Assembly (NCBI RefSeq): GCF_041260155.1
Contig: NC_091944.1
Span: forward strand, 24,776,332 to 24,840,331
Reading direction: 5' to 3'
Length of the DNA stretch: 64,000 bases
Source: Ptychodera flava
Taxonomy: Eukaryota > Hemichordata > Enteropneusta > Ptychoderidae
Shown: in pieces, positions 13,630 to 57,618 of the stretch
Numbering within the stretch: the stretch's first letter is position 1
Layout of the letters: each line of letters begins with the position of its first letter
Made by a program: the position numbers and the translations under genes
The notes under the pieces: generated by a model
Database searches by the model: none
Seen by the model: the letters and a program-made list of their open reading frames with translations, nothing else
Told to the model about the DNA's origin: nothing

Positions 13630-16167
13630 AAGTTGCTGGAAAGTGTCGGTGGTATTGCCAGATAAACGACACAAAAGTGCAAGGAACTGGTGAATATAGG
13701 CATTGATATATGTCTGGTCAGCACAAAACAGCACTGTGAAGATCTGAATGACTGGGCAATAATTCTTCCTTGCATAATAGTATCTATTTACAAACTGTTG
13801 GATCGCCCACAATACAATTAATTTCAGGTGAATACGCAAAATTGCCCCTCTAAGAATGCCAGGCAGGAGGTCGTTTCTGGTCGTGGCGAGTTCAAAGAGT
13901 GGATTGTGGGAAATTAGAAAGTTAATTAGCCTTACGAAAGGGGACAATATTTCGCAGATTCTTGTCAAACCGATCGAACTCCGTATAGAAGTCGGTGAAT
14001 AACAAGGATGGCAGGGATTGCGCGGAGAAATTTATTTCTTTGGCGAAGCTGTTTACATGGTTGTCAGGTTTTACTGGCAATCGGCGTTAAATTACAGCTC
14101 ATAAGGAGGATAATTTGAGTCAAAGGTGCCCCTGAAGAACGATTATTGGGATTTACAGAGTGACACCGTTACCCAGTTGTGAGCAACATTCCAGTCTGTC
14201 TGGCAGATCCCCAGCACCGTGTACGCCACTACGGTAACGGGCGGATTGCCATGGGATTTAGTGGTCACGGTCGGGGGTTTTTATGAAGAATTGCTGGGTG
14301 ATTTATCGCGCAAATTCTACGTGCAAGCCATATTTAGGCCTCGGTGACCGCATTTTCGATATGTTTATCATATCTCGATAATCGCGAGAAGCCCTTGGAA
14401 ACGGTAGTTCTAACAGTTTGAAAGACTGCACTCTGACACGTGACCGTCAGTTACGCGGAATCTCTGAAACTGATATTGTAGTCATCGCGAATGGCTTTGG
14501 TGAAATTTCAAGATATTTGATGCGATAACTGGGAAAATGACGTTATTTTGATAATTGATGGACGGGTTTTATTGGTGTCCAAAACGTGTTTAGCCAATGA
14601 TACGCCGCTTTCTTTGACTCGACATGGCGATAGCGGCCTCAACTCGGAATCGAGAATTTTGACGGCGTCACGCGTGTGTACCGTACTGCGCTAGGGAAGC
14701 GTCGAATAGTTGTTGCGGGGATATAGCTCCCTATGTTGTCATGTTGTCCACTTCAATTGCGTTTAATGACTGGCCGTAAGTAGGTTATTGACAATTGTAT
14801 GAAGAAGGAAAATGACCCAATTGATCAGCGCCAACGGCGGTCACCATGCAGAGAATGAAAAAAAAAACTGCCCGGCTGCGGAACAAAGACGATACCAAGC
14901 TCTGTCTCCAGCTATCTTGGCCTAAAGGGTGTTTTTTTCAAAAAGCCAAATTAACGTCAGTTAAGTAATGTCGTCTGGTATAGGTACCATTTTTTGTAGT
15001 GTAATGATTTGGATGTCCAGAACGAGGCGATAAACTTTCCTCGCTCATAAACTTCAGAGGTGGTGAACCAAAGACTCCCAGGTGTTTTTTTGGCGCTGCA
15101 CAAAAACAACAGGTGGCTTTCTCCTTTGAACAATGTTGTATTTAATTCATTGGGTTGTTTTTGTGACAACATTCGGAAATTACACTGTTTGCAGAGCTTG
15201 TATCCTATCTACGGACGAAGAAATTTGAACGATTATATTAATACGCCGTGATGTTCAACTAGTGATCGTCTTACTGTTGTTGTACTATGCGTAGGGGTTG
15301 AGTTACTGATACCATTTCGTCATCTTGGAGATTGACATTTTGTTTGAGCACTTCACTTCTGAGAGCACTCTTGAAAATCTTCGCGTGCGTGCATGTGTGT
15401 GTACATTTAGAAAGAAAGGGGTAAATTGACAGATAAACAGACTGACATATAGATAAATAGTTACGGAGACAGACAGACAGATAGATAGGTAGAACATGGA
15501 GGTAATAACAAGACTCCATGGCTAGAAAGACATTGATTACGAGTTGTGCATTGATATGACACGTGCGATCTAGGGTCTAACGTAAAATGGCACGGCAAAA
15601 CGGCACTTACGGTTACGCCACCCAGACGTTAATAGCCCTCTCCGAGCGTCATCTGTATCTACAGGTCCCGAAACTCTGCTCTAGTGCATCCTCGATGAAA
15701 ATAAAAAACGGACCAGCTTGCTACACTATTATATTTCAATGTATTCATCATATTCATTTACTTTCCATTAAAATTTTCTCATTTTTTTCCAGAGCACGAT
15801 TATATTGAGGTGCATGTGCTGTGCTATTTTTATTACAGTCGTCTTTAATTTCTGTGAACTCCTATGAATAGTTTACTTTTGTTCTAACTGACACGAATAC
15901 ATCAACTTAATTATCGTATTTTAGTCCCTCACGAATCAGTACTTACATCTATAGTCCTGCTCTGCCTCCATAGCAACCCCTCGTAATATTTACCTCCTCG
16001 TTAAGAAAGTAACCGGAACTATTAAGTCTACCAAACTATACAATAAAGAACGATACTTGGTCATTGCAATTAAACTTACACAATTAGCAAACTTTAACAA
16101 ATTTAAGTTTTTGATAATCCCACACACAAGCTTATAAAATTTATGTATTGGTATCTGCAGGTCCCCA
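13630..16167. other. No gene recognised
   Basis: About 2.5 kb without a recognisable gene. A degenerate GATA/GACA patch occurs at about 15420-15490. Other short frames have no supporting features. Confidence 0.4.
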
Positions 16168-16256
16168 AACATACATGCATGCATGCATACACATAGATAC
16201 ATAGATACATACATACATACATACATACATACATACATAGATACATACATAGATAC

Positions 16257-16323
<67 letters not shown>

Positions 16324-16582
16324 CATACATAGATACATACATACATACATACATACATACATACATACATACATACATACATACATACATACAAATACAT
16401 ACATACATACATACATACATACATACATACATACATACATACATACATACATACATACATACATACATACATACATACATACATACATACATACATACAT
16501 ACATACATACATACATACATACATACATACATACATACATACATACATACATACATACATACATACATACATACATACATAA
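16168..16582. repeat. Tetranucleotide array (ATAC)n with inner (GATA)n
   Basis: About 400 bp of ATAC units with a block of about 16 GATA units near 16256-16321. It reads as Met-Tyr-Val-Cys on the minus strand in all three frames; those frames are not genes. Confidence 0.97.
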
Positions 16583-19500
16583 GTCGTCTTGACAGCAATG
16601 CATTTTATCTTCGATACCGAAAACAGAGGCCAACCAAAAAAACTCTTAGGTTATTTTCAAGAGGTGGAAATTTCACAATGAAAAGTATGGGTATGTGAAA
16701 ATTATGATCAGAACTGCACATCGGATAAAACGCCGACAGAACCTTCAGAAAAGAGTGAAATGATATTTATCAATACTGAAATACTAAATTACCATAAAAA
16801 TTCTACATTCAAAGGTTACAGTACAGTGACATAGTCAATCTGGTCGATGATATCTATTTTGCCATACCACTTTCCATTTTTACGTGAATTGCAGACTTAT
16901 GCCTTAACATACACAGTGTGATCCTCTCATAAGTTTCTAGTATGAAATCAAAGAAAGATTAATGCAGTACCTTGACCACGTAATGAAACTGTGGACATGC
17001 ACGGCATATTCAATGTCTATCGCAAGATATTGAATTAGAATATGTCAATATGGCCCCTGCGGAGATAACTGGTTCAGATCTACACAAGTTTTTGAGTTCG
17101 CAGCGAAATCTTCCTGTGTGCATAGGGGCTAGCGTAAATGTCCGCCCCCAGGGGTATTATACAATTAAGCAAGGGTATGATACCCTGCTGGTGCGTTCGG
17201 TGTTGACTTTGTCAAAGTTAATCCATTGATGATCTGGTTACAGCGTCGACAGTTTAGTAACTTACCCCTGCTTGCTTTGGCGCATTCAGCAATCATACGC
17301 ATCTAATAATAGATGCGGCATACACGGCAAACTTAGTGTATGATTATCTAAGGACAAATACATGGCACAGTGAAGGAGAAAAAGAAATCGTTACAAAACC
17401 AGCGCTAACGTAAGACAAAGACACCCAAGGTTGGTAGTATAAATCTTTATTGGCAATATCATAGTTCAACGTATTCAAATAAAGTAAACAACAGTAACAA
17501 AGAACCTGTGCTGAGACTGAGACACTCCTACCCCCGCCCCTATCCTTGGGGACGGACATTTACTCTAGCCGCTATGATTAAATACAAAATCAACACATTC
17601 CGAATGTGTCATTGCCCTTCGATATAACGGCAGAGAGGCAGTAATAAAAAAGAAAAGAAGACAAATACCTTGGCGGTGAGGGCGCAATTTATTCCAGCCA
17701 GCCCCTAATGCGAGATTCTGATAAGGATTCGGTCTATAACTAAGCGTTAATTTTACTTTTCTAATATTCTGAGATTCCTATATAAAATCCATACTACTGA
17801 ACTTGACCATTGTAAGATGACCCAATTTCGGAAAATATTCCGGCTAAGTTTTAGTATCTCATTTGGGTTTACATCAATCAGTGAATAGAATGATGATCAT
17901 AGAAAAAAGCATGGTTAGAGAAGGAATACGAGCCATTTAGCCAATGGCATCGATGTCTTTACAAAAAAAGGTGGGAATACGGAGAAAAGGGCTGATATCG
18001 GACAACTATCGACCGAGCTGAAACTGACAGTTTACAGAAATGTAGCAGTCGAAATGGCGATAATTTTTCACGCAAAAAATTATATATTAAAAAAAAAGAT
18101 GATCCAAAATCAAGCGATTCATATATTTAAATAATAACACATGATAGCGAGGGCAATATCAAAATTTGTTTCCTGCCCAAGGGATGGTGCTCATGACCGG
18201 AATATTGATGGTGCCGAATCTTTAAAAGCGTATTTCCGAAGTGTAATATGTAATTTGACCATTTTATATCCCAAAGTTGTTACGCTGAAAATAGTTGCAG
18301 GTGAGTATAACGATGACTATGCGGCCTGCTACGTCTTGGCAAGTTACCATCGAATCGTGTGGAGCGCGCGAAGTTCGATATGAGTTATGTCATAAATGGC
18401 ACCGTATAACGATAAAGTTCTTCTCAGTGGTTCAACATTGTGTCACTGTATAACTCATTGCAGATAGGACGGGACAATCAAAGCTTCCCATCAAGTAAAA
18501 CTGCATCAAACGAAGTTTAGTTTCTACGTTTTCACTGTTTGAAAACTTAAGTTTAAAAAATGACTTGACCAGGGGTGGCGCTATTCCGTTAAACGTCATA
18601 ACGATTGCTTACAAACAGAAAGTAGCTCGCTCGCTTTTTTGGACGAGCGCCACCGTGACAGGGTTAGCGCCCTTGCGCTCCCACAATCCAGGTAACCTTA
18701 GGTGAGAGATTGGGAAAAGCAGACAATGAATTTGCCACTTTTAACAAACAAATCCACGTTCAAGGGCCAACAGCTCTAACTACCGATCATTTTAACTAGA
18801 TTTGTTGTTTTTGTTTACTATACATTCAGCCATAAAAACATAAACGCGATGCTAATATTTACATTTGAATTTAAGTGCTGATAAGAAGACACTTGTCAGA
18901 ATAATGCACATTAATGACGTAAACGTTGAGCTGACAAGCTGAATGCTGTGTATCTCAACATGCTTTGTTGTTTCAACATACTGTAGCTGACTTTAAAAAA
19001 GAACAAACTAAAAGAAACCAGAAGTATCTACAAAGTTTCACTACAAGCCCTGTTAAGGCAAGTCTAAAATCTATGATATTAGTTATTTGCCAGAAAAAGT
19101 CTATTTGTTGTTCTCAGATAAATTATTTTTTGCATCTTTGCTCATAAACTTCCAAAATATTCATGTTAACCAGATGACTATTTCGACTTTGTCAAGTCTA
19201 AGTTGAAGGATTTGGAGTACAATTTTGAGAATTTTAGAGAAGGGAAGAAGATTTATTATTCAATATGTGAAGTCCAATATATACATGATGTGTAAAATTT
19301 ATACACAGAATAAGATTAAAATATCAGAAGAATTATTTAAATAAATTATTGATTTTTTTTCTGACAAGAAGAATCGCCCGACCTTTTCAGAACCCTTAAC
19401 ATTACAACTGATGGCACGGCGAGATGTAAAGATTTACATGCAGCTTGGAACGGTACGCCGTATTTGTGCGTATATATACTTATTTAAACAGCGTGTTTGA

Positions 19501-20549: not shown

Positions 20550-20574
20550 GTCCTCATTGTTCGTCGCGTGAATC

Positions 20575-21423
20575 ATGTCAGCAGCGAAAGAAAATAACCC
20601 AGGACAAAAAGCTAACATTGACAAAACTGTTGAACAATTGCAAGAACCGGCTAAAACGAAAAGTAGACGTACAGGACAGACGGGAAAAAACGAAGCACCA
20701 CATTCGTCCGGTCTAGACGCTGTCTCCGAACTCTCTCAGCAATTACGAACTTTGAGAAAGAAAAACCGAAAATTGGAACGCGAGAAAAAGTCTCTCGAGG
20801 ACCAGGTATGCGTCCTGCAGGAGCAATGCCTAGTGTCTGACGAGGAGAGAAGGCATGCAGCCGAAGCTGAACTCGTCCGACAACAACTGCAACTGAAAGA
20901 GGACGAAAATGTCGTGTCCGAGGAAATGCGACGCGGCCTCGAAATAGAAAGGAAGAAACTCAGAAGACGGGTACACAAACTGCAAGGCGAGCTGAATCGT
21001 ACAAGGCACGAAAACCTGCAACTCATGCAGCATTCCGAGATACTAGAACGCATTCAAGAGAGTATGGAGTCGAAGTTGAACGAGGCGCTGAGTCAAGTGA
21101 CTATTTTGAGCATGATTGAACATATGGCTCCGGCCGCTCAAGAACAGATTCAAATCCTCCGTGCCTGTCTCATATCTGTTCATGAAAGTAGGGCACAGTC
21201 GCCTGGCCGCAGACGAGCGGCAACGCCAAATGCAACGCAGGGTTCTGCTATAGATATGAGTTGCATCATATGTTACGAACACGAAAGAACGATTGAAACA
21301 CGGCCCTGCGGGCACATCGTGATGTGCGCCGTGTGCGCCCAGCAGCAATCCGACGAAAACGGAACTTGCCCCGTGGACAGGCAGGTCATTGAATCAATGA
21401 GGAATATAGCAGAAGATCAGTAA
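20575..21423 (+). CDS. Coiled-coil RING-finger protein 1 (likely E3 ubiquitin ligase)
   Basis: A 282-residue protein encoded in one exon. Residues 1-50 are polar and disordered. Residues about 50-190 form a long heptad-rich coiled coil, probably for dimerisation. Residues 230-268 are a C-terminal RING: Cys230, Cys233, Cys245 (PCGH), His247, Cys251, Cys254, Cys265, and Asp268 where a canonical C3HC4 RING has its eighth Cys (CPVD). Asp in that place is known to bind zinc in RBX1. RING proteins of this kind recruit E2 enzymes to transfer ubiquitin; the target is unknown. The start is the first ATG after the predicted acceptor at 20549. It is closely similar to the 26092 gene and more distantly to the 56710 gene. 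Confidence 0.85.
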   Translation: MSAAKENNPGQKANIDKTVEQLQEPAKTKSRRTGQTGKNEAPHSSGLDAVSELSQQLRTLRKKNRKLEREKKSLEDQVCVLQEQCLVSDEERRHAAEAELVRQQLQLKEDENVVSEEMRRGLEIERKKLRRRVHKLQGELNRTRHENLQLMQHSEILERIQESMESKLNEALSQVTILSMIEHMAPAAQEQIQILRACLISVHESRAQSPGRRRAATPNATQGSAIDMSCIICYEHERTIETRPCGHIVMCAVCAQQQSDENGTCPVDRQVIESMRNIAEDQ

Positions 21424-21712: not shown

Positions 21713-22830
21713 TATAACTATCTGTGCATGGAATATACAGCACCTTACTAACAAAATAGAGCAGTTAAGACATTTTTTTGAATTTTAGTTTCCAAAGTTC
21801 ATTCATTTCTGTTGACATTTTATGCATTGTTGAGAGTTTTTTGTCGAAAGACCATTCTGATTCTGAATTTTTGATTGATGACTACAATCTTGAACGTAAA
21901 GATAGATTACTCAGAATAGGCGGTGGTATTGTTACATATCTAAAGTCTCATATTTTGTACAAACGGCGTGTTGATCTTGAATGTGACGACCTTGAAATTA
22001 TGTGGATTGAAATAACACCTAACAGAAGTCGACATTTCATGGTTGCTATTATTTATCGCCCTCCCAATACAACTCGTGACACTGATATTGCGATTGTGCA
22101 GAATATTGAACAGGGTTGTTGTGAGGGTAAAGAAATGATTCTCTGTGGTGATTTCAATATTGATCTTTTAACAGAGTTGTCTTTGAATCATTACGTTTAC
22201 CAGTCTTTGTTATCTTTGAACATGGTACAATTAGTCAATAGTATTACTCGTCCTGTTTCTCACTCTTGCCTTGACCACATATATGTGACAAATGATGAAA
22301 ACTTTACTGATACCAGCGTTATTGAACTTGGCCTGTCCGATCATTTGCCTGTTATTACACACCGTAAATTGAATGTACAAGGTAAAAATCGAGGTGGTCG
22401 AATAAATATCAAATACAGGTCTTTTAAACGTTTTAATGAAATGAAGTTCATTGACGATTTGAAGTGCGCTCCATGGCATCTACTTAATGGTATTGAAAAT
22501 GTGAATGTCTTATTTGATACTTGGATTTCGATTTTCAATAGACTTTGTGACTTGCATTGCCCAATTATTGAGCGTCGTGTTAAACGTTTCAGGCAGCCGG
22601 AATGGCTGACTGCTGACATATTAAATGCTATGAAAGAGCGGGATGTAGCTCTGAAAAATGCCAGATCTTGTTCATCTATTACTCTATGGAATCATTTTAA
22701 ACTTCTTCGTAACAGAGTTGTTCATCTTATTACAATGGCAAAAAAGCAGTATTTTAGAAATTCCATAGCAGGCAGTAGCAATAATGCCACGGCTATCTGG
22801 TGTTTACAACAATTTGATCAATGTAAATAA
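21713..22830 (+). pseudogene. LINE ORF2, endonuclease part
   Basis: The conserved start (CAWNIQHLTNKIEQLR) is visible from about 21717 in a different frame from the rest, so a frameshift lies near 21775. The main frame runs from 21778 and has the APE endonuclease motifs LCIVESFLS (catalytic Glu), CGDFNID and SDHLPV, with a GGGIVTYLK segment between. It loses frame near 22800, just before the RT. Confidence 0.85.
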
Positions 22831-24307
22831 CTTTAAGGATCCTACATTTATATCGAATGGGGTTTGCTTTGAAAACCACTCTGAGATTGCTGACGCTTTC
22901 AATAAGCATTTTGTAGGTATCAGTCACTGTACCGATGATTCCAATGAACCTGTTAATCTGGAGTCATTACGTAAGTTTATAAATACGGTATTATGTGATG
23001 TTCCGTCTTTCAGTTTTCCTTTACTGAAGAATGATTTTGTTTGTAAATCTTTACAAGAAGCCAAATGCACGGGTATTGATAATGTTAACTGTAAGCTCTT
23101 AAGAATTGCTGCACCTGTAATTTCAGCTACTCTTACTTACCTTTTCAATAAGAGCTTGGATCATGCTATTTTCCCCAGAGTCTTTAAATGTGCTAGAGTT
23201 GTTCCCATTTACAAAGGGTCTGGTAACATCAGTGATATGTCTAACTATCGTCCTATTTCAATTTTACCAGCTCTTTCGAAAATCATTGAAAGACATGTGT
23301 ACAACTCTTTTTTTGAATATTTATCTATGTTTAATCTTCTTTTCGATACTCAGTCTGGTTTTAGAAAGAACTACTCATGCCAAACAGCCCTAATCCGTTT
23401 AACAGATGAAATTTTGTGTAATGTTGACAGTGGTTATTTGAATAGTGTACTCCTGCTTGATCTATCAAAGGCATTTGATCTTATAGATCATGACATTTTG
23501 CTTGCTAAACTACATGTTTATGGGCTATCTGATGGAGTGATTAACTGGTTTAGATGTTATCTCTCAAATCGTCAACAGATTGTAGATTACATGGGTAGTA
23601 GATCGACTATTTGTCGTGTTACCACAGGTGTGCCGCAAGGGTCTATTTTAGGACCTTTACTTTTCATGATATTTATTAATGATATGTCATTGTCTGTTGA
23701 TTCCTCCACCCTCCACATGTATGCTGATGATCAGACACTACTTACGAAGGGAAAGTGTATTAGTGAAGTCAATGATGCTGTAAATCGTGATATTTTACCA
23801 ATTTCTAATTGGATAACCAATAATCATATGCGTATAAACGCAAGGAAAACAAAGTGCATTTTGATAACTTCACCTTTTATGTTGGGTCATTTAAATAATT
23901 CCGATGTTTCATTGTCTATAGAGATAGCTGATACCAAGATCCCCAAAGTTATTTCAGGGGAGATTTTAGGTATATCTTTAGATGAAACCTTATCCTGGGA
24001 TGTTCATATTGATAATTTATGCAAGAAATTGAGTATGCGCATTGGATTTTTACGTAAACTTCGTACTTATATTCCTTTTGATCAGCGGTTAGTACTGTAC
24101 TATGGTCTATTCCAGAGTATTCTTGATTATTGCTGTGTAGTTTGGGGAAACACAACAGTTAAGAATATTGATAAAGTGTTTATACTTCAGAAACGAGCTC
24201 TACGCACGCTTTTTGAACTTCCGTTTGATTTCCCTTCAGTGGATTTATCATGTCTGTCAGACAAAGAATATTTTACTTCACCGCAATTGAAACATTTAAA
24301 TGTTTGA
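22784..24307 (+). pseudogene. LINE ORF2, reverse transcriptase part
   Basis: A 507-codon frame with all core RT motifs: NYRPISILPALSKIIER near residue 154, SGFRKNYSC near 191, LLDLSKAFD near 224, GVPQGSILGPLLFMIFIND near 282 and YADD at 313-316. The SKAFD and GVPQGSILGP forms are typical of the CR1/L2/Jockey side of LINEs. A frameshift near 24280 separates it from the C-terminal piece. Confidence 0.9.
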
Positions 24308-26063: not shown

Positions 26064-26091
26064 GTCTTTATTGTTGGTTGCATGAGTAACG

Positions 26092-26952
26092 ATGTCAGCA
26101 ATGAAAAAGGAAAACACAACACAAAGGGCCAATATCGATCAGTCTGTCCAACAATCGCAAAAACATGTCACAACTGGACTGCAAGAGCAAACAAGAGATG
26201 AGAAGACATTACCGTTGTCCGGTCGCACCGATGGAAACGCTGTCTCGGGACTCTGCGAGCAAGTGCGAACTCTTAAAAGTGAAAATGCAAAGTTAGAGCG
26301 CGAGAAAAAGACACTCGAGGACGAGGTGTGCGTGCTGCAGGAACAGTGCCTAGTGTCTGACCAGGTGCGAAGGCAGGCGGCCGAAGCCGAGCGCGTCCGA
26401 CAACAACTGCAACAGAAAGAGGACGAAAATATCGTGTCGGAGGAAATGCGGCGCGACCTCGAAGCAGAAAGGGAGAATCTCCGAAGACGGGTACACGAAC
26501 TGCAAGGCGAGCTGGATCGTACCAGGCACGAAAACCTACAACTGATGCAGCACTCGGAAATACTAGAATGCATTCAAGAGAGCACGGAGTCGAAGTTGAA
26601 CGAGGCTCTGAGTCATGTGACCATTTTGAGCACGAGTGAAAATCTGGCCCCGGCCGCCCAACAACAGATTCAGTTCCTTCGTTCCTGCCTAGCTTCAGTG
26701 CAACCTCAAGACAGCAGGCCACAGACTCCCGCCCGTAGCACAACCGCAGCAACACCTGATACAAGACAGGCCTCTGCCGTTGACATGAGGTGCATCATAT
26801 GCTACGAGCATGAAAGGACCATAGAAACACAACCATGCGGACATATCGTAATGTGTGTGGTATGCGCTCAGCGACAGCGAGATGAAAACGGAAATTGTCC
26901 AATAGACTGGCAAGCTATTGAATCAATGAGGAATATTGCAGAAGATAACTGA
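26092..26952 (+). CDS. Coiled-coil RING-finger protein 2 (likely E3 ubiquitin ligase)
   Basis: A 286-residue single-exon paralogue of the 20575 gene. The coiled coil spans about residues 50-195 and is nearly colinear with gene 1 (for example LEDEVCVLQEQCLVSD and QQKEDENIVSEEMRR). RING ligands are Cys234, Cys237, Cys249, His251, Cys255, Cys258, Cys269 and Asp272 (CPID), followed by the shared tail IESMRNIAED. The strongest differences are in the N terminus and in the Ser/Thr/Pro-rich linker before the RING (about 203-228). The start follows the acceptor at 26063; an upstream ATG in the leader (26080) is out of frame. A possible polyadenylation signal, AATAAATAAA, is near 27347. Confidence 0.85.
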   Translation: MSAMKKENTTQRANIDQSVQQSQKHVTTGLQEQTRDEKTLPLSGRTDGNAVSGLCEQVRTLKSENAKLEREKKTLEDEVCVLQEQCLVSDQVRRQAAEAERVRQQLQQKEDENIVSEEMRRDLEAERENLRRRVHELQGELDRTRHENLQLMQHSEILECIQESTESKLNEALSHVTILSTSENLAPAAQQQIQFLRSCLASVQPQDSRPQTPARSTTAATPDTRQASAVDMRCIICYEHERTIETQPCGHIVMCVVCAQRQRDENGNCPIDWQAIESMRNIAEDN

Positions 26953-39728: not shown

Positions 39729-40564
39729 TTACAGGAGGAAGACTTTGTAATTGTTGCGTTCAAACTCTGAGACGATCATGGTGGGCATTTCTGGATTCGA
39801 AATCTCATGACTGAGTGCCACGAACGACGGCTTGATCAGCTGATACCAACCGAGGTTCTCGATGAACGTGCCGTCGCGCTCGTAGAGCTTGACGATGTTG
39901 TTTGCATAATCAACCGCGTAGATTTTGTCATCTTGATCCACCGCCACGCCGTAGGGATCCATTCTCTCTTTGCTGCTTTGTGACGACCCGGCTTCGTTGT
40001 TACCATTCGCCTTATACAAGAACAGGCCATCTTCCGTCAGGATTTGGATGCGTCTATTCTTCACATCAGACACGATGATGTGATTGGAGCTGTTGACGGC
40101 GACCGACTTGGGCGACTCGAACTCGCCTTCCCCACTTCCCTGTTTTCCGATGTCTCTAACATGCTGCCCATCGAGCGTGTACTTCCTGATACAGTGTTTG
40201 GTTGGATCGGCGACAAGGAGGTGGTCGTCCCTAGTCAGGGCTATACCGTGGGGATCTAGGTTCTCGCTTTGGCCAAAGGTAGTGAGAACTGTGTTGTCTT
40301 CCTGGCATACCACTATCTGCTTGTTGGTGTCGTCGCTGATGAAGTAACGCCCGTCCTCTGTCACCACAACATCGCGGGGCGTCATTGGCTGCGGCAAATC
40401 TGGCTGAATGACGTGTCTGCATTCATATCCCCTCCCAGCGATGATCTGTAATCTGTTGTTGTGATAGTCAGCTATCACCACCTCTTGGTTGTAGTTGATG
40501 GCGACGCCACTGGGACCCCTGAATTGGTCTTGCTCGGAGCCTTCGTCTCCAAACTTTCTCACTC
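39729..40564 (-). CDS. Exon 5: NHL propeller of the five-exon gene
   Basis: Starts after the acceptor CCACCAATGCAG and encodes residues 781-1058. Six NHL repeats are visible, each with a Gly/Val-Ala-Val strand and a D/S-D-x-x-N-N/R-R-I/V-type turn: GPSGVAIN...IADYHNNRLQII; TPRDVVVTEDGRYFISDD; DPHGIALTRDDHLLVADP; SPKSVAVNSSNHIIVSDV; DPYGVAVDQDDKIYAVDY; KPSFVALS...IVSEFERNNYKVF. Opening with RKFGDEGSEQDQF before blade one is usual in TRIM-NHL proteins, and six blades is the usual number. The protein ends four residues after the last blade. Confidence 0.93.
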
Positions 40565-43500
40565 CTGCATTGGTGGTTCATCTGGTCGTGTAAGAAAGGG
40601 GACAGAAAATTGAAAATTTGAACATCAAAAACACGCAACAAGGAAAAATACATGTCCATTCACACTGCTGTAGTAATTTTTCTTCTGTATCCATCAAAAC
40701 CCTTGTTTCCGTGACTGACAACCTCAACAAGTTTACTAGTAGGGTAATGCAGTGTGCTACCAGTTGACACATATAGATCTTACTGCAACTATAGATCTTG
40801 ATTTATGCATGTATAGTAAAATAGAACGCGCCTTGGGGACAAAAATCTGGCCCCTATCAAATGTTTACTATGCAGTTTATGCACCTACATGTACTGGGTG
40901 ATCTTGGTAAATGCTCATATTTTAAAACCGATGAAAAAACAGGAAAACCCATGGACAACACCATACTTAACACGGACAGTAATAATGAAAGCAGAATGAA
41001 TCTTCTTGATTTCACATCTCAGGGAAGACTATATCCAAAAGTGTTGTTGGCCTGAATTGCATGTAATTGTGTGGCACCTTGCCCTAATATCATCTCGATT
41101 TGAGATTTCATCAAAATTTGGGGATAGGTGCTGGCCGGAGTTCTGGTGCTAATGTAGATAAATACAGAATTGTAATTTAAAATGCTAGTGACAGGACTCG
41201 TGTACATACATACTGTTAGACAGCAAAGAAAGAATTTCCAACCGTTACTTTACATTAACGTACATGTTTTCTTAGAGAAGTTTCACGACACAAAAAAAAA
41301 GTTGAGGGAAAGTGGGGAAGGACTCTAGTTTAAGGGAAGTAATGGTCATACAAATTATTGGTATGTTTAATATTCACTGCAGAGAAAGATGTTGATGTTT
41401 ATTTTTGTTGGGAATATTCAGCTATTCAGTGTAACAAAATGTTAAACTGTAACTCCCTGTAAATTTTGGCATCAAATGAAGTCAATATCTGTGAATGCTA
41501 TTTGCAACTTTATGTCCTCATATCATCTAAAGTATAAATTGTTTATGCTGTCAAACAGAAACGTGGAAAGCTATTAAATATGCTATTTTTGGTTGAATGC
41601 CCCCCACCCCCCACCTTGAGGGCCACTATTCAGACTCAAATATTTACAATGTTTTACTGGTCTGCTGATTGTTTGACTTCATTTTGAAACTTGTTGGAGT
41701 CACTGGTGTTTCCACTGTCATCCAAAATTTTATGTTTCCCCCATAGAATTGATATACTGTAGGCCACATTTTGATTCTAACACTCAGTATACTGGGGTAC
41801 ATTTGTTTTATAAGAGCCAAAAGTTATGTGGTGACCCCTGATAATTATGCGGTGACTCCGATAGTTATTCTTCTTTATGAAAGAGGAAGTTAAAAACTTT
41901 CAGTTTTGAGTTACGTATTACCTTAAAGGCCCAATAGCTGTATCTTTTAGCATTATTTTTGTGATTTTACTTCCAAACTAAAACAAGTTCGTGGGAATGT
42001 ACTCATTGAGGGGTGTTTATACAAGTAGAATAAACCGTCAACTGGGACTGCATGTGCAATTTTGGGCAAGATAAATAATAGACGTTTGCCCAAACATAAA
42101 ATGGCGCCCTCATGCAAATAAAGCAAAAACACTGTACGTCGTGCATATATGCATTGGAATCTTCACAGAAACAACAGAGTAGTCCAATATAATGCATAGT
42201 GCTGACTGTTTTCCACTTGGACATCATATGCATTGTTTTCTTTGTAATATTACCAGTTTTTAAAAATGGTGGGAAATCAAAATAATGGTTAAAATTTAAA
42301 TTTATTCGTCCAATTTTTCAGGAGTAGAAGCTATATACATGTCATTCAGGCGATGGTTTTTATTATTTTTTGCATATTTCCCTTTCTTTCCTTGGTAAGA
42401 AATATACCACAACAGCATCAGAGTTGATGCGACCATCATTAACAAATCAGTTCCTAGTCTACATATATTAAGCTTAAAGTTTAAATGGCATTGTGCATTT
42501 GGTTTGGATGTTTTTTTTATAGGAAATCATACTCTTCAAAGAGCATTTACTGAGTGGCAACATTATATATTATTGCCTGAATACATGGGTTTACGTGCCC
42601 GAGAGCAGGTAACAATTTGCCCAACGCCAGGAGGGCAAATTGTCTCCTGCTGCGAGGTCACATAAACCCATGTATTCAGGCAATAATATTTTTATTACAT
42701 GCCTCTTCACAGTTAATGCTATATGACATTTAGTTACATGCAGGGCATTTTCAAACAATGTCACCATTATCGACAGCATCAAACAGATTTTAACGAAAGT
42801 CAAAATAGCAGTGGGCGCATGGATATTTTACATTTTGCGTTAAGCGTCTACTTTGACGACAAAAATATCGAAAGACTTCACTGGCCCGGGTAACCATGGA
42901 AACCGGTCAGTACATCGTTCACCGGCCCGCTAACATCCAAGATGTTCCTATTCAAATCAATGCACTGATTTGCATTCACCTCGAGGCATGTACATGTAAT
43001 AAAGAACTAACATTTTACGGCAATCAAGAATGATACTCACGTTGCTGCGATGCCCTCTCCTGGAACTCCCGTTCAAGTTCTTCAGACTTCTGCTTCAGTC
43101 TGGCCCTCAGGTCATCAATCTGCTTCTGCCTGTCTTCATTGCTCTCCTCCATCTCCTTGATCTCCCGCGTCCGAATCTCCACTTCCTCCTGGAGACGGGC
43201 GTTCTCCTGCTCCAGCCGCTCGTACTCTTCTTTCTCCTTCTTCAGCTCGGCGATCTCCTTCCGGAGTTTGGTTTCCTTCTTCTTGTGCTCCGCGCGCTGT
43301 TTGTCGATGTTCTTCTTGATCTCCTCGATCTCTATGTCGATTTCGCGCCCTTTCTCTTCCAGCTCCTTCTCGGTCTGCCGCAACTCTCGCAGCTCTCGGT
43401 GCAGGCGTTGGTTGTCCTCGATCAGCTTCTGCCGGATCATGTTGTAGACGTTGTGCTCCTTGTCGGGGATCGGGTGCTTCATCATCTCCAGCTCCTCTTC

Positions 43501-46500
43501 AAACGTGAGCTGCGCCAGCCTCGCGTTCCTCTTGGCCGACATTAGATACACATCGGTCAGAGACCTGGACGACTGCAACTTCTTCTTCTCGTCCTCGCGG
43601 TAGTACCATCGGTATCGGTCGTCCCGTGGAATGACGACTTTGTCCATGTCTGACGTGCTGCGGCGGCGTTCAAACTTCCACCGTGACACTGAAGGGTAAT
43701 GATGAAACAGATAGAAATATCAGGAATTGAAATATTTCATCAAGCATGTATAATGACAAGTGATTATACCATAGGGATTGCCTGAAGTCAATATATCAGT
43801 TTCCAAAATCTGTTTTTGAGAAGGACCCTTACCTTTTCCCCTAGATGAGTATATTATGTAAGATCTGAAATGCATCAATATTTTCCACTGATAATGATTT
43901 AATATCACCAGCTATGTATACTCAGACAACGGTCATTAATACACTGGTTAATTTCCATACATAACTGCAATGGTCCATGGGCCTGGATGAGTGACAACCC
44001 CCTTTGGGAATTCAGATATAATGTCTTTTGAAGGCCCATCATATGCAGAATAAAACATGCATTGTTTGCCATATGGATGCTGAAGTGTTCAGAAGTTAGC
44101 TGTTGTTGAAGTAAATGCATGAGTTATATGTGGGAAAACAATCTCAATGGACCAAGGGGTGACACAGCCTTTAGCCAAAACCCTTTATGTACAAGTATGA
44201 TGATTTGCAATAATGATGTATCCAGAATGACTGAAAAACTCATCAAATAGATTGTCCAATTATTTCAGGGGAAGGGGTAGTGTTTTACACTGTGTATGCT
44301 GCAATGAAAGATTGCATTTTGAGGAGTGCAATCTCCCATAAAAACACATGGGAATTTTCTTTCTGATATCTCTGGCTTCTATAATAGCTTGCACAATTCC
44401 TTAACTGATCCAGTATTCTCAAGACAAAAGAAAAGGAGCATTTAGATTTCAAACAAGAGTGCTGGCAAAATTTGGGCCGGTGTCAGCAATTGTCCATCAA
44501 ATGTGCACACACAAGTAGATATATTGTCAAGGCACTGAGAATATTGTACCCTGTACTTGAATTTGGTGGCATATGTACATGTACATATTATATGTATTTG
44601 ACACGGGAGAAATTTCATCTGATTTCAGATGGGTAGGCTTGTACTTCAAGGAGACATATTTTTATCTTGATGTGAGTTAAATTTATGAATTAGTAGTACA
44701 TGTGTGAGTAATGGCTGGTCAACTTGAAAAATTCTTCAATATTTGAACAACAAATGCATTTTTTTATGATATTTCTGTCATCAAAATCAGAGTAAACAAT
44801 TTTTACGCACCTTTTTCGAACATCAGCTCTTTACGACATTGTTCATACTCTTGCATATCCAGCGACACTTCCAGCTTCAGGTACATGGCTCCAATCTCCT
44901 CCATGATGTCATAGGTCAGCAGAATCTCATCCATGATCTCGCACAGCTTTTTCTCCTCGTAAGCTTTCCACAGCGCGTCCAGCGCCTCGATGGTGGTTGC
45001 CTCCATGATGAAGCGAGTGGTCAGGCGGTCAAAGTACTTGGCTTTCATCTTCCCGTGGACGCCGGCCAATCTCTCCAGGCACTTCTGAAACTCGGGCCGA
45101 TCCTGGCCGAAGAGGTCGTCGTCCACTTTGTCCATTCCTTTGCGAGGCGCCGGGATGCCGCTCTTGATGCTGAGGTGAACGGTGGTTTCATCTGTGCGAG
45201 GTTCAGATGAGATGGAGAAAAAACGTGGATTTGGAGATGAGATACAAAGACACAAACTAATGCATAGGATAACATGGCAATCGAGTAGTGTGACATAATG
45301 TTTGTGAGTTGTGATGCGCCGTTATTTCACCATGGTCTAGTCCAAACCAATGGCTATCAATGGTGAATATGGACCTGTTTGCAGGAAAATAGGGGTGGAC
45401 AGGTTAAATAGTTTCACCCTCCAAAGTCTCAACTTCTGCTCAAAGCTGAGAAATTTCACTCTTAAAAATTACTATTCATTCATAGAAGTACAGCATACCT
45501 TAGACTGGAAGATCCATTGTTTGAGGGTGCTCTCTACGCTCAGAGGATGTAGGGAGCGTCTTTGAGTCACAGATCTTTCAGTATAAGCACACACCCTTGC
45601 CCTTGGAATATTCGCTGAGTTCTGAGGGGCATACTATTATTGTTATACGTGTACTATGGAGACTTTGTTTATTGATGCCTTGTTTACATTATTCATGTAC
45701 TTACAGGGTTTCCTGATGGCCTTGAGTTTGTACCTGAAGAATCTGTTGCTGAAGGGATCTTTCAGTTTGATAGACAGGCTGGCAGCCTCCGTGCGCGTCA
45801 GACGAATTCCTGTTGGAACGGATGAAAGTGGAAACGTCAACACAGATGAAAGAATGTGTTGATACCCTTAATTCTAAAATACAGATTTGTCGCACTACAT
45901 TTGTATTCCAATGGTTTGTGTGGAAAAAGCTACGTTAAAATGTAATTCATATAGGAGCACAAAACAATGTACATACACATGAATTAAGTTCTGATTTGCA
46001 TAAATATGACAATGACAGGGGTATCACGCATCATGTAGTTCAGTCATGGCCACATTTAGCAGTGTACAAAGTTTGCAATTTTTCTGAGATATTTCCACAG
46101 CTGTTTGCCTGTAAGCATTCACTACCATTTTGGAAATGAGACAAGATGTTTAGGTTGTGTACTGTTGTACATGTACCGACGTTCAATACAGAACAGTGAA
46201 TGAGACACACCGATTCTGCAGAAGGGCTGTCAGTAACTAATAAACAAAAGCACACAGAATGAATTCACCGTGCCCGCCCTAAACGTTATACATCTATGCC
46301 ACTGCAGATACATGTACCTGTAGGAGGATGGATACAGTATATGTTTGCATGGCTGCAAGCAGTATGTAATGCCGATATTAAAATTTCACTATTGAAACAA
46401 ATATGTTGTCACCAGACAATTGTCGTAACGAATATGAAAATAAACATGTTGCACAATGATTTTTGCTAGGCACAACCAATCTTCACAGGGTGCCCAACCA

Positions 46501-47953
46501 CCTTCAAATCTGCAGGTAATTCTAAATATCATGTTACAATTATTTGTTTGTGACATAAATACTTAAATGTGGAACGTCATGTGAGGCATTAAGAAAGCAC
46601 ACTTACATCTTAGAAAATGTATTAGATCCCATATGAAGAGCAGTGCTGATATTGTTAAAATTATGAATATGAATAATTTTCAGGTGCCCCTCCACCTTCC
46701 CTAATGACTACATAATTTATTCATATGACAGCGTTTACTACTTTACCTAAAAGACGATCTGGTCGAATAAGTCTCTGGAACCCCTTCTTCATGTCCTGTT
46801 TGGTTTGGTGGGCCGAATTATGCAGGAATCGTCTGACCTCTGAGGCTCTGTACCGTGGATTGTACGATCTCTGGATATAGTCCCGAATTTTGTTCCTCAC
46901 GGAAGCGAGGTCCGTCATTTCGTCAACCATGAACTTCTCAATGTTTCGCATGTGTTGGTTGAGAATCACGTGAATGTCTGACTCCGCGGGTACCATGCAC
47001 GGCACGCCGTACGCCATGCTGTTGAGCGCCAGGCTGCGAGAGTTGACGGCCGCTTTTGGCACAAATATTAGGTTTGCGTTCTTCATTTCTTCATCGAGGG
47101 CTTCCATGGGCAGGGGTGGTGTAGTCTCAAAGACTTCCTGCTGCTCGGGGGTCAGGTACTCCTTGAGTTGTTTCTCCAGCCCACTGGGTACCCCGACCAT
47201 CCTCCATGTCATGGGGGTGTTCGTTTGTGACTTGAGGGCGAAAACGACGTCGGCGAAACTGGTGACAACTTGTGTCTCCCTGATGTAGTGGTCTTCAAAC
47301 AGCGACAGGACTTGGTACGACTCTATTTCAGGCTCAAAGTCTGGACGCGACAGTGAAAAGTACCGATCATCGGGCAATGGCGGAACTTGAAAATGCTTTG
47401 AGACGATCTCATCGCTTCCTTGGTACTGCCTACAGTGGTACATGTACGTGTTGAAACCGATTGATATGACGGCGTTAGCTTCGAAGCAGTCTCGAAAGGT
47501 GTGCTCTGCACGGCTGATGAACTCCTCGCGGCCACATCTGAGGTAGCTGGGCTTCAAAGAGTCAGTGGGCCAGAGATTAACTATGTACAACTTCGCCTGA
47601 GGGTAGAGATCTTTGCGAATTTTCACCGCGGCATCGCACGTTGTCATGCCGAATCCGAAGATGACCTTGATGTTCTCCTGGCCACCGAGATTCGGAAAGT
47701 ACAAGTTGTGCATGAGAAGCCAGTCTGGGTGGGGCTCGCGAAGTCGCAGCCGACCGACGGGGTTCGGCAGATGCAGCGTCACGCCCAGCTGATTGGCTTC
47801 TTCTTGCTCCATGCTGTTGACTTTGATCGCGGTGCAGTGAGCCTCGAGGCCAATTATGCGCATTTGATGCGTCAGAAGTCGCACTGCAGACGTGACATCG
47901 CCATCTGTCAATGGCCCCCACTTCTCACTCACTATCAGAGCTCCAGACACCAT
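39729..47953 (-). CDS. Five-exon gene: GT-B-like / TRADD-N-like / coiled coil / NHL protein
   Basis: Coding exons in transcript order are 47953-46747, 45809-45705, 45191-44811, 43688-43041 and 40564-39729. Their lengths (1207, 105, 381, 648, 836) total 3177 nt, which is 1058 codons plus stop. Each junction has GT-AG sites and every intron is phase 1. Predicted domains: residues 1-402 GT-B glycosyltransferase-like, 403-437 linker, 438-564 small alpha/beta domain resembling TRADD-N, 565-780 basic segment and coiled coil, 781-1058 six NHL repeats. No signal peptide or membrane segment, so probably cytoplasmic. NHL propellers in TRIM proteins bind RNA or protein, and TRADD-N-like domains occur in death and immune signalling. 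A sensor or scaffold role is inference. Acceptors TTTTGCAG and TACTACAG just 5' of the ATG suggest an upstream untranslated exon. Confidence 0.8.
41595..41926. mobile_element. MITE family B, degraded copy 4
   Basis: Right end GTTACGTATTACCTTAA and interior GTGACCCCTGAT/CCCCATAGAATT match the nested copy at 38934. The left end is eroded near a C-rich stretch. Confidence 0.65.
41923..42480. mobile_element. MITE family C, copy 2
   Basis: Begins TTAAAGGCCCAATAGCTG and shares its TTAA with the adjoining family B copy. The interior AAAATGGTGGGAAATCAAAA is the complement of the block in the copy at 7580, so it is inverted relative to that copy. The right end is eroded, so that border is approximate. 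Confidence 0.75.
42568..42690. repeat. Long fold-back hairpin in intron 4
   Basis: The arms pair over about 55 bp with few mismatches. The outer part TATTGCCTGAATACATGGGT pairs with its complement at 42665-42685; the inner part has GAGAGCAGG and CAATTTGCCC against GGGCAAATTG and CCTGCTG. The loop is under 12 nt. It could be a tiny fold-back transposon or a source of small RNA. It lies inside the intron of a transcribed gene. Confidence 0.8.
43041..43688 (-). CDS. Exon 4: basic segment and coiled coil of the five-exon gene
   Basis: 648 nt, acceptor TTACCCTTCAG and donor CAAC|GTGAGT, phase 1 at both ends. It encodes residues 565-780. It starts with a basic/aromatic stretch (RWKFERRRSTSDMDK, then DDRYRWYYREDEKKK). 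From about residue 640 an uninterrupted Glu/Lys/Leu-rich coiled coil runs to the end (LRELRQTEKELEEKGREID... to ELEREFQERASQQ). By analogy with TRIM proteins it probably drives dimerisation and spaces the NHL propeller from the N-terminal modules. Confidence 0.9.
43689..44810 (-). other. Intron 3 of the five-exon gene
   Basis: About 1.1 kb from donor GTGCGT (44810) to acceptor CCCTTCAG (43689). Ordinary AT-rich sequence; no embedded element or exon recognised. Confidence 0.75.
44811..45191 (-). CDS. Exon 3: TRADD-N-like module of the five-exon gene
   Basis: 381 nt, acceptor CCTCGCACAG and donor AAAAAG|GTGCGT, phase 1 at both ends. It encodes residues 438-564, including EATTIEALDALWKAYEEKKL, then a helix, then YLKLEVSLDMQEYEQCRKEL. 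The order (strand TVHLSI, helix with LWxxYxxGxL-like motif, amphipathic helix, strand LxLxV, then a terminal EY-containing helix) resembles the TRADD N-terminal domain, which has a ferredoxin-like fold. The match is by pattern only. Other small alpha/beta adaptor domains of animal immune proteins are possible. Confidence 0.6.
45192..45704 (-). other. Intron 2 of the five-exon gene
   Basis: About 0.5 kb. It includes, at about 45325-45425, a block that recurs inverted at 35919-36005 (GTCCAAACCA, GGACCTGTTT, ACAGGTTAAA), so part of it is a dispersed repeat. Confidence 0.75.
45705..45809 (-). CDS. Exon 2: linker of the five-exon gene
   Basis: 105 nt, acceptor CGTTCCAACAG and donor AACCCT|GTAAGT, phase 1 at both ends. 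It encodes residues 403-437 (GIRLTRTEAASLSIKLKDPF... to KAIRKP). It is basic and has no separate domain that I recognise; it probably forms the last helix of the GT-B-like part or a spacer. Its role as an exon rests on exact frame continuity with exons 1 and 3. Confidence 0.75.
45810..46746 (-). other. Intron 1 of the five-exon gene
   Basis: About 0.9 kb from donor GTAAAG at 46746 to acceptor TTCCAACAG. No element or exon recognised. Confidence 0.75.
46747..47953 (-). CDS. Exon 1: GT-B glycosyltransferase-like domain of the five-exon gene
   Basis: 1207 nt, ATG to donor TTTTAG|GTAAAG, residues 1-402. The start GALIVSEKWGPLTDGDVTSA is the opening strand and loop of GT4-type GT-B proteins (usually VSxxWGPxxGG). 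IKVIFGFGMTTCDAAVKIRKDLYPQAKLYIVNLW matches the following Rossmann part and its 'viGH...pAA...Pkak' pattern. The second half has LIFVP, then LALNSMAYGVPCMVPAES, the GT4 donor-side motif. The EX7E pair is absent: Val303 and Asn311 stand where two Glu would be, and the N-terminal Gly pair is Asp-Gly-Asp. It may be a non-catalytic binding domain. An in-frame TGA 27 nt upstream supports this ATG. Confidence 0.75.
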
Positions 47954-54939: not shown

Positions 54940-56572
54940 GGCTGCGTTCAAAAAAATGGTGAGGGGGGGGGGCTGGAGGAATCGCAATTGAAATCTTACT
55001 TTTTTTTCAGATCCCCCCTCAATACCCTGAAAAAATTTCAAGTCCCCCCTCAATACCCTCAAAAATTTTGAAGTCCCCCCAATTACCATATAGCCGCATA
55101 TTTATTAGGAATGCACGCAGAGTAAAAAAAACATGTAATGTGTCGTTCTGCACGCAAATGTTCAACACTACCTCTTATCAGCAGGTTGTAGAGCCATATA
55201 CCTAGGGCAAGTTCTTAAATTGATTCATTTTTAAATGCATCAGTGAACTTTTTGGATTTCTCAGTCTAAGCCAACTTGAGTTTATCCAACTCTGGCCAGT
55301 TCAATGGCACCAGCTGAAAAGCACACAAAATGACAATCATGAGAGAGTATGAAAATTGTGTATTCCTAGCTACGTTTAACCAAATTGTGAAAAAATGAGC
55401 ACAGTGACCTACCGAAATTTTTTTTCAAAAGTACAAGACATATACAACTTAGATGCCACTTATAAATGTTTTACAAAATTGACAATACTGGAAGGTTAAA
55501 ATATTCTATGAAATTAATGTTTTAATCTCAGAAATTTTGGGTGTAATAATGGCAAATTTGATAAAAAAAATGATTCCATTCAGTCATACATATTTCCATT
55601 TAAATTAAAGTTTTTACTGTTCAAAGTTTTACTTTTGTGTTATTGTACAATGAGATGTGAAAACTTCATTCACTGCATGAACTTGAAATGAATGGTTTTA
55701 TATATTGATTTTAAGTGATTTTAGAAAAACTGACTTTAAATCATACATTTAGTAAGATCAAGTATGGTGACCCCATCTTTTTTCTCTAACATTTCATTGT
55801 TCTCATATGCCAGAATTCAAAAATCCATAGTAACTGTTAGTCCCCCAGTCTTCTATGTGTTGCTCTCTGGCTGGATCTTGTGTACAAGTAGATGTATGTT
55901 TCACTGTCAATTGAGTGTCCTATGACCGAAACTCTTCTTAAACTACATCAGAGTCAGAGCTACATGTATCACTGTCACTGCCAGTATGTAGTAGCAGGGC
56001 AGTAGTTGTATTAACTTTTTATTTTGACAATATTTTTGTTCAGTTTATACAATTGCGTTCTTGTTCTACTCCCTACAGCATGTTGAGCTGTCTAGTATTC
56101 AGCTTGCCAACACAGCCTACGTGTACCGTGCATTTGCATCATTCAATTATCACCAATATTTAGACAAACGGGCTTGTTGACAAACTGAATATTTTGTTTT
56201 CCAGCATGCTTTGGAGAGACACCAAGAAACTGTGTTTGATACATTGCATAGAAATATTGAAAAATTATCAACAGTTGTAACTCCTGCCCCATTACAAGGC
56301 CAACTTGTTTTACGAAAATTTAATGGCATTCATACATTTTTAGATTTTTTCGAGATTAAAGACATAAAATGCGACAAAACGGTTCTAGATTTTGTTTAAT
56401 TATTACTAACATTAGAACCATTGGACGACATCAAAATGTTGGGAGTCAAAATATTTCAGGTCCCCCCTATAGGCAGAGCAAAACTTTCAAGTCCCCCCTC
56501 GACTACCCCAAAAATTTTCGAATCCCCCCTGAATTCCTCCAGCCCCCCTCACCATTTTTTTTGAATGCGGCC
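54940..56572. mobile_element. 1.63-kb G-rich inverted-repeat element
   Basis: Left end GGCTGCGTTCAAAAAAATGG then TGAGGGGG and GCTGGAGGAAT. The right end's complement is GGCCGCATTCAAAAAAAATG then GTGAGGGGG and GCTGGAGGAAT. TTA stands directly outside both ends (54937-54939 and 56573-56575), a probable 3-bp target duplication. Sub-terminal repeats of the phrase AAGTCCCCCCTCAATACCC occur on both sides. Non-coding. A family A MITE is inserted at about 55997-56290. Its right end lies about 130 bp from the RING gene 3 exon. Confidence 0.85.
55997..56290. mobile_element. MITE family A, copy 6, nested
   Basis: Left end GGGCAGTAGTTGTATTAAC and right end GTTGTAACTCCTGCCCC form the inverted repeats. 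Hallmarks TTCTTGTTCTACTCC, ACAGCATGTTGAG and AGCATGCTTTGGAGAGAC are present. It lies inside the 1.63-kb element, so it came later. Confidence 0.8.
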
Positions 56573-56576
56573 TTAT

Positions 56577-56612
56577 ACATACATACATACCAATCATACA
56601 TACATACATACA

Positions 56613-56642
<30 letters not shown>
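56577..56642. repeat. (CATA)n microsatellite
   Basis: About 65 bp of CATA units, beginning as soon as the 1.63-kb element and its TTA end. It lies 64 bp before the RING gene 3 exon. Confidence 0.95.
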
Positions 56643-56643
<1 letters not shown>

Positions 56644-56709
56644 GTGGAGTTTTTTAAACAAAATAATTATAGAAGTAGTAAGAATAAAACGTGTTTGTTT
56701 TGCAGGACA

Positions 56710-57618
56710 ATGGCGAGTGGAGACGGAGCAAGTACGGTTGAGCATAATGCAGAGCACAACGTCGCCGACCTCTTGCAGACGATTGAAGGCTTAAAAGCGG
56801 AAAAAGCCGAGTGGACGAGACAGAGGAAGGAACTGGAAGATGAGATAGTTCGGCTGCAGGAGGAGAGTCAAGTCGCCGACGAGGTTAGGAAATTGGCTGA
56901 GCAGGCGAGGCAACAACAAATCGGTGAGAACAGCAGTGTCGTCAAACTGTCCGGCAAAATTCGCAAGCTCAATGGGGAGAAAGAGGGGCTCATACGGCAA
57001 ATCACGGAGTTGGAGAATGAGATTGTTAGGCTGCATGAAGAGAGGGAGGTGGCAAACGACCTGTGCATGGACGCTGTCGATGTGTCGTTTCACGAAAACA
57101 GTGCCGACACCGTCCACTCTGACTGCCATGAGCAACTGACCAGTCTTCAGGCCGATTTGGCCAGCCACCAAGAGGAGAACGAGAATCTTATGGGACAGAT
57201 TGGCAGACTTGAGAGCGAGCAAATAACAATCCAGGCCAATCTTGGCGAAGCTCTGAGTCACATCTTGATATTCCGAGAGCAGTCGACGCCTTCCTCGATG
57301 AACCGAGACCAGCTCGAGAGACTGGAAATGATATCCGCATGCCTGTCTTCGCTGCATGACGCACAAGATCGATCGCCCGGGCCGGGCCGTCGGAGCGACT
57401 CCCCGGGGGCAGTCCCGCCGGTGAGATCGGAGCCACCTGGGGAGAACGCCGACATGAAATGCGTTATCTGCTATGTGAAGGACTGTTCAGTCGAGATTAA
57501 ACCGTGCAATCACATCGTTATGTGCGACACCTGTGCCGAACTGCAGATGAGCGAGAACGGCACATGCCCAGTTGACCGACAAGCCATAGAATCAATGACT
57601 AATATCATGGAAAATTAG
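56710..57618 (+). CDS. Coiled-coil RING-finger protein 3 (likely E3 ubiquitin ligase)
   Basis: 302 residues, single coding exon. The start is placed at 56710 because a strong acceptor (TTTGTTTTGCAG) ends at 56705, so the ATG at 56644 lies in an intron. Two coiled-coil blocks (about residues 20-105 and 130-190) repeat the phrase ELEDEIVRLQEE / ELENEIVRLHEE, an internal duplication. A Pro/Ser-rich linker precedes the RING: Cys251, Cys254, Cys266 (PCNH), His268, Cys272, Cys275, Cys286 and Asp289 (CPVD). The tail IESMTNIMEN matches genes 1 and 2. It is much more diverged from them than they are from each other, so it split earlier. The 5' exon is not identified; the 5' side is occupied by the microsatellite and the 1.63-kb element. 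Confidence 0.85.
   Translation: MASGDGASTVEHNAEHNVADLLQTIEGLKAEKAEWTRQRKELEDEIVRLQEESQVADEVRKLAEQARQQQIGENSSVVKLSGKIRKLNGEKEGLIRQITELENEIVRLHEEREVANDLCMDAVDVSFHENSADTVHSDCHEQLTSLQADLASHQEENENLMGQIGRLESEQITIQANLGEALSHILIFREQSTPSSMNRDQLERLEMISACLSSLHDAQDRSPGPGRRSDSPGAVPPVRSEPPGENADMKCVICYVKDCSVEIKPCNHIVMCDTCAELQMSENGTCPVDRQAIESMTNIMEN

Follow-up and report, generated by a model that had tools for sequence, protein, structure and literature searches.

We analyzed a window of 64,000 nucleotides from the hemichordate Ptychodera flava (contig NC_091944.1 of assembly GCF_041260155.1, positions 24,776,332 to 24,840,331, forward strand), in which five in-frame exons on the minus strand (47953 to 39729), separated by GT-AG introns, give a product of 1058 residues. 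This product joins a domain of the GT4 glycosyltransferase family, a TRADD-N-like domain, and NHL repeats preceded by a predicted coiled coil. A five-exon gene of this length, with four in-frame GT-AG junctions, had been proposed from the letters of the DNA (hereafter, the sequence-only reading). Among 96 combinations of GT and AG sites around the boundaries taken from that reading, and thus not amounting to an independent gene prediction, 4 leave one open frame down to the stop at 39729, and the 1058-residue model is one of them. The P. flava protein available at NCBI (P0001) is identical to the model over residues 1-780, which means that exons 1 to 4 and three junctions are independently agreed upon, and the gene is confirmed as real. 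Its features are the following.

46747 to 47953, minus strand: exon 1, residues 1-403, with the start codon at 47953 and phase 1 at the exon end
46817 to 47938, minus strand: GT4 (GT-B type) domain, residues 6-379, from Pfam PF20706 and hhalign to cyanobacterial GT4
47021 to 47047, minus strand: EX7E site, with V303 and N311 replacing the two glutamates, from the alignment to cyanobacterial comparators
45705 to 45809, minus strand: exon 2, a basic linker, residues 403-438, from in-frame joining
44811 to 45191, minus strand: exon 3, TRADD-N-like domain, residues 438-565, from an AlphaFold2 model and its first PDB match, 1f3v_A
43041 to 43688, minus strand: exon 4, linker and coiled coil, residues 565-781, from in-frame joining
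43051 to 43449, minus strand: predicted long coiled coil, residues 645-777, from the model helix and a heptad test
39729 to 40564, minus strand: exon 5 with acceptor 40564, NHL repeats, residues 781-1058, from PF01436, the TRIM71 structure, and identity to Glandiceps
40559 to 40581, minus strand: alternative start of exon 5, giving HEPPMQE and then TGA (40561-40559) with loss of NHL; its translation equals P0001

All four introns are in phase 1, exons 2, 3, and 4 (105, 381, and 648 bases) are each divisible by three, and the G+C content is 0.50-0.56 in exons against 0.35-0.41 in introns. There is nearly one module per exon: GT4 in the first, a linker in the second, the TRADD-N-like domain in the third, a linker and the coiled coil in the fourth, and NHL in the fifth. 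This layout fits what exon shuffling would leave and, since all introns are in phase 1 and close to module boundaries, we infer that the gene may have been assembled by shuffling. Intron 4 contains two nested inverted repeats (42567-42689), one with 34-nt arms that are 94% complementary and the other with 19-nt arms (89%), separated by few bases, which would form a long hairpin and possibly represent an element similar to miniature inverted-repeat transposable elements.

The same domain order, which the sequence-only reading had suggested looking for in other hemichordates, is present in Glandiceps talaboti. Its protein P0006 (927 residues) reads in one frame through GT4, the exon-3 domain, and then NHL, and aligns to the 1058-residue model over residues 36-1058. 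Residues 1-35 and almost the whole of 683-781 are absent from the P0006 model, which leaves its coiled coil short or missing, either in the gene itself or through the way it was predicted. Its NHL part matches positions 40565-39732 of the window with 57.7% identity over 279 columns (tblastn), and the similarity begins at 40565, adjoining acceptor 40564. In P. flava, the frame of NHL runs uninterrupted for 277 residues. A TGA at 40580-40578 lies in this frame, hence any joining of NHL needs an acceptor located downstream of this stop, for instance 40564 or 40561. Because P0006 joins GT4 and NHL in frame, we hold the fusion to be real in the hemichordate lineage, as judged from these sequences, and most likely present in P. 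flava, perhaps alongside a shorter form.

The GT4 domain, predicted as GT-B-like over residues 1-402 by the sequence-only reading, is indeed recognized by sequence: the Pfam GT4-conflict profile PF20706, of the GT-B family, matches residues 6-379 with an E-value of 1.4e-12 (45-47.8 bits for a cut-off of 26). It also matches P0006 (38.6 bits) and P0007 (91.2 bits), a paralogue and second GT4-conflict protein of P. flava that is encoded on another contig. P0007 has 498 residues, no other Pfam domain over the cut-off, and an acidic low-complexity tail, and it shares with our gene the start and first residues of exon 1 (MVSxALIVSExWGP). Since PF20706 passes its cut-off in all 14 control genomes, such a match shows kinship with GT4 and nothing more. 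By hhalign, the three hemichordate proteins match a set of 39 GT4 proteins from cyanobacteria with a probability of 86.6% (E-value 4.5e-6), in the same EX7E register as the alignment.

None of the three hemichordate proteins found, P0007 included, has the EX7E glutamates. The ungapped positions hold V303 and N311 in P. flava, I and T in Glandiceps, and T and A in P0007. The motif is found in 39 of 40 cyanobacterial comparators (among them L085), which were picked by best score, mostly share nearly one motif, and are not independent; the remaining one, L101, has D-x7-E and was left out of the hhalign comparison. All were found with PF20706, 10 being loci from 6 cyanobacterial genomes and 30 being loci taken from 194 searched genomes in that phylum, among which 33 gave a match at E<=1e-20. 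The printed alignment of the site includes the hemichordate proteins and 7 of the first 10 comparators. Most comparators are presumably sucrose-synthesis-like enzymes. Their G-R...K stretch, which has a phosphate-binding role, is likewise missing from the three hemichordate proteins. EX7E is conserved in GT4 proteins of the PIG-A type, according to the cited part of PMC2446393. These replacements suggest that the domain is a pseudo-enzyme that has lost catalysis and, as the active-site glutamates are missing, "glycosyltransferase" is a better name for what the domain is related to than for what it probably does.

We dropped a fold claim for GT4 drawn from a structure model of 787 residues, built with 3 sequences, because the model is too poor (mean predicted local distance difference test, pLDDT, of 45.8). 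GT-B enzymes are among its best Foldseek matches, mixed with receptor chimeras and universal stress proteins, and no E-value falls below 0.001. With this low-confidence model, the GT-B pseudo-glycosyltransferase VldE (4f96) ranks 11 (E-value 4.7e-3), and no sequence evidence links it to the P. flava protein. VldE forms a non-glycosidic C-N bond. A search of PDB sequences with the GT4 domain gave no match at E<=10, and one with the alignment from GT4 to the linker gave a single unrelated chain (E-value 0.24).

Exon 3 encodes a domain of 127 aligned residues, 67 of which are identical between P. flava and Glandiceps. Its AlphaFold2 model (mean pLDDT 57.7, predicted template modelling score 0.53) has a beta-alpha-beta-beta-alpha-beta, RRM-like arrangement, and its first match in the PDB is the TRADD-N structure 1f3v_A (E-value 4.6e-3). 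The coiled coil of the following exon, as proposed, is predicted as a single helix over residues 645-777, and the hydrophobicity at heptad positions a and d (P0001, residues 641-781) is 0.50 for a shuffle mean of 0.27, a value reached by none of 2000 shuffles. The NHL repeats were also correctly recognized: PF01436 matches five stretches (E-value 1.9e-24), a reading of exon 5 gives six propeller blades, and the nearest solved structure is TRIM71 (E-value 3e-45), followed by Thin and TRIM2. NHL is the best conserved part of the protein (160 of 271 aligned residues identical to Glandiceps), which points to a ligand that is itself conserved and not to a quickly evolving molecule of an invader. 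In line with the proposal that RING and B-boxes are replaced here, neither is matched by Pfam at E<=10 in the 1058 residues; leucine-rich repeats (LRRs), in whose place there are a coiled coil and NHL, and the death effector domain (DED) are also without a Pfam match in this protein.

The sequence-only reading knew of no described family with this order, which has to be amended. Kaur et al. 2021 (PMC8195603), cited here for its main text, describes invertebrate relatives of TRADD from computed domain architectures, with GT4 placed before TRADD-N and followed by LRRs in cephalochordates, hemichordates, and cnidarians, and proposes an immune effector role for GT4. The likeness lies in the succession of GT4, TRADD-N or a similar domain, and repeats in marine invertebrates including hemichordates; the difference lies in the repeats, LRRs there and a coiled coil with NHL in P. 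flava, and in the serine turn of TRADD-N, absent from the P. flava protein, which itself lacks EX7E. The same main text describes DED-TRADD-N-WD40 proteins in Branchiostoma and Crassostrea, which resemble ours in having TRADD-N and then a beta-propeller, but with DED and WD40, and no GT4 described, where P. flava has NHL. In TRIM-NHL proteins (TRIM71, TRIM2, TRIM3, Thin, Brat), as here, an NHL propeller comes after a coiled coil; these proteins differ in their RING and B-boxes, instead of which P. flava has GT4 and the TRADD-N-like domain. NHL does not appear in the main text of PMC8195603, the supplementary tables lying outside this check. We found no publication joining NHL, hemichordate, and glycosyltransferase, nor any for "GT4-conflict", and a term search of the main text of PMC10210618, on immune challenge of S. 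kowalevskii, returned no TRADD, TRAF, NHL, or glycosyltransferase. The fusion of GT4 and TRADD-N in hemichordates is already published; what seems to be new is NHL as a partner and the erosion of the GT4 site. The gene probably belongs, as a variant, to a group of marine invertebrate proteins that has been published and proposed for immunity.

From this published context, by analogy, we propose that a GT4 domain without its glutamates, a TRADD-N-like domain, a coiled coil, and NHL would together make an oligomeric intracellular immune adaptor, a proposal that we see as evenly balanced. Copies of the protein would assemble through the coiled coil, ligands would be bound by NHL and by the pseudo-GT4 domain, and signalling partners would be drawn in by the TRADD-N-like domain. 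In vertebrates, adaptors of the TRADD type have a central place in cell death.

Several observations weigh against this proposal, and they concern the last junction and exon 3. P0001 (787 residues) is the exact product of acceptor 40581, located 17 bases upstream of 40564 and the first AG past a clear pyrimidine tract; it ends in ...ASQQHEPPMQE before the TGA, in a shifted frame that omits NHL, and its model stops 23 bases into exon 5. If P. flava mRNA normally used this acceptor, the product would be a GT4, TRADD-N-like, and coiled-coil protein with the NHL exon excluded. We consider this unlikely, given an open NHL frame with 59% identity to Glandiceps, above that of GT4, and the in-frame NHL of P0006, whose similarity starts right beside 40564. 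The end of the NCBI model within exon 5 comes close to the condition by which the sequence-only reading would be refuted (transcripts ending between exons 1 and 5), while the Glandiceps protein speaks for a genuine fusion with NHL; the competing acceptors could give both an NHL form of 1058 residues and the NHL-less form of NCBI. Regarding exon 3, the TRADD_N (PF09034) and TRADD-like_N (PF20694) profiles are unmatched at E<=10 in P. flava and Glandiceps by hmmscan, in which filtering by HMMER removes most matches with E-values beyond about 0.1, whereas human TRADD matches both. An hhalign comparison of exon 3 with human TRADD, with 200 shuffles, gave nothing. A tiny residue followed by serine (or Cys) in the beta2-beta3 turn is a hallmark of TRADD-N in the main text of PMC8195603; this serine turn is absent, being R-L-T-T in P. 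flava and R-R-N-N in Glandiceps. Many ferredoxin-like folds score near TRADD-N in the structure comparisons, and the confidence of the model is moderate to low. Exon 3 could then be another ferredoxin-like or RRM-like domain, with neither homology to TRADD-N nor a link to death or immune adaptors. This is rather unlikely, as TRADD-N comes first in two structure comparisons, both TRADD structures are within the Foldseek top five, and the domain comes after GT4, as published for hemichordates (PMC8195603, main text). An identification of TRADD-N by sequence was dropped after the blank hmmscan and hhalign results and kept at the level of fold; with profiles unmatched and the serine turn absent, "TRADD-N-like" is the safe name.

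Two further explanations accept the architecture and assign it another function. The GT4 domain might still be active by other chemistry and act as an effector, ligand binding by NHL leading to glycosylation of a target of the invader or host, as Kaur et al. propose in their main text for the GT4 domains of these systems generally. Its reading frame is open, and 45% of its residues (166 of 367 aligned) are identical in the two genera, hence it is likely kept by selection; moreover, WsaF, a rhamnosyltransferase, tolerates replacement of the Glu equivalent to the second one of EX7E. However, both glutamates and the G-R...K stretch are gone from all three hemichordate proteins, and we give this explanation little credence. 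Alternatively, the protein could be a non-immune scaffold, a regulator of RNA or development similar to TRIM-NHL proteins in which GT4 replaces RING and B-boxes. The nearest solved NHL domains and the conservation of NHL are consistent with it. RNA-binding NHL domains have a positive binding face, whereas this one is acidic (isoelectric point 4.98, 28 Lys+Arg for 42 Asp+Glu), which makes a regulator of this kind improbable.

The searches for relatives complete this picture. Among the best 7996 candidates scored there were 5 matches, P0001 being the only full relative; a further search (5621 candidates scored) gave 2 matches at E<=1e-3, and a third (best 7995 candidates) gave 2 at E<=10, without returning P0006, although the query included a piece of it. 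Since these searches miss relatives, we make no claim of absence from lancelets, cnidarians, or Saccoglossus. A search of genome contigs with P0007 matched a pattern in 279 stretches, none confirmed as relatives, and tblastn found no relatives in plasmids. Matches by PADLOC were rejected, being either within the coiled coil or of low significance (best E-value 5.8e-4), and Rfam gave no match within the window at gathering scores. The other features of the window are the following.

20572 to 21423, 26086 to 26952, and 56533 to 57618, plus strand: three single open reading frame (ORF) paralogues, each with a C3HC4 RING finger after a helical or leucine-zipper-like region
38 to 2365, minus strand, and 21769 to 24307, plus strand: two retrotransposon coding regions with reverse transcriptase, the second also with an endonuclease ORF, shortly past the first RING ORF
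9595 to 10632, minus strand: open frame of 345 residues, without a Pfam match at E<=0.01
15990 to 16650, minus strand: extended simple tandem repeat (MYVC repeats) that leaves all three minus frames open and is probably not a gene

The first two RING paralogues are 69% identical, the third is 31-42% identical to them over parts, and together they make up a small family of neighbours, likely RING E3 ligases, in the vicinity of the GT4-NHL gene. Retrotransposons are reported near TRADD-N genes in the main text of Kaur et al. (PMC8195603).

Returning to the immune adaptor, a more specific and rather speculative version would make it, in acorn worms, a receptor built on a dead enzyme related to bacterial GT4 enzymes. 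The pseudo-GT4 domain would sense a nucleotide sugar or glycan, NHL a second ligand, and the choice between acceptors 17 bases apart would switch between a two-input sensor and a one-input regulator sharing the TRADD-N-like hub. In any case, one gene, kept in two hemichordate genera, encodes a predicted effector enzyme that seemingly lacks its active site and has a TRIM-type propeller attached. Should this GT4 domain prove inactive, the effector role published for such domains would fail for some members of these systems, and a binding role would be directly testable with one purified domain.
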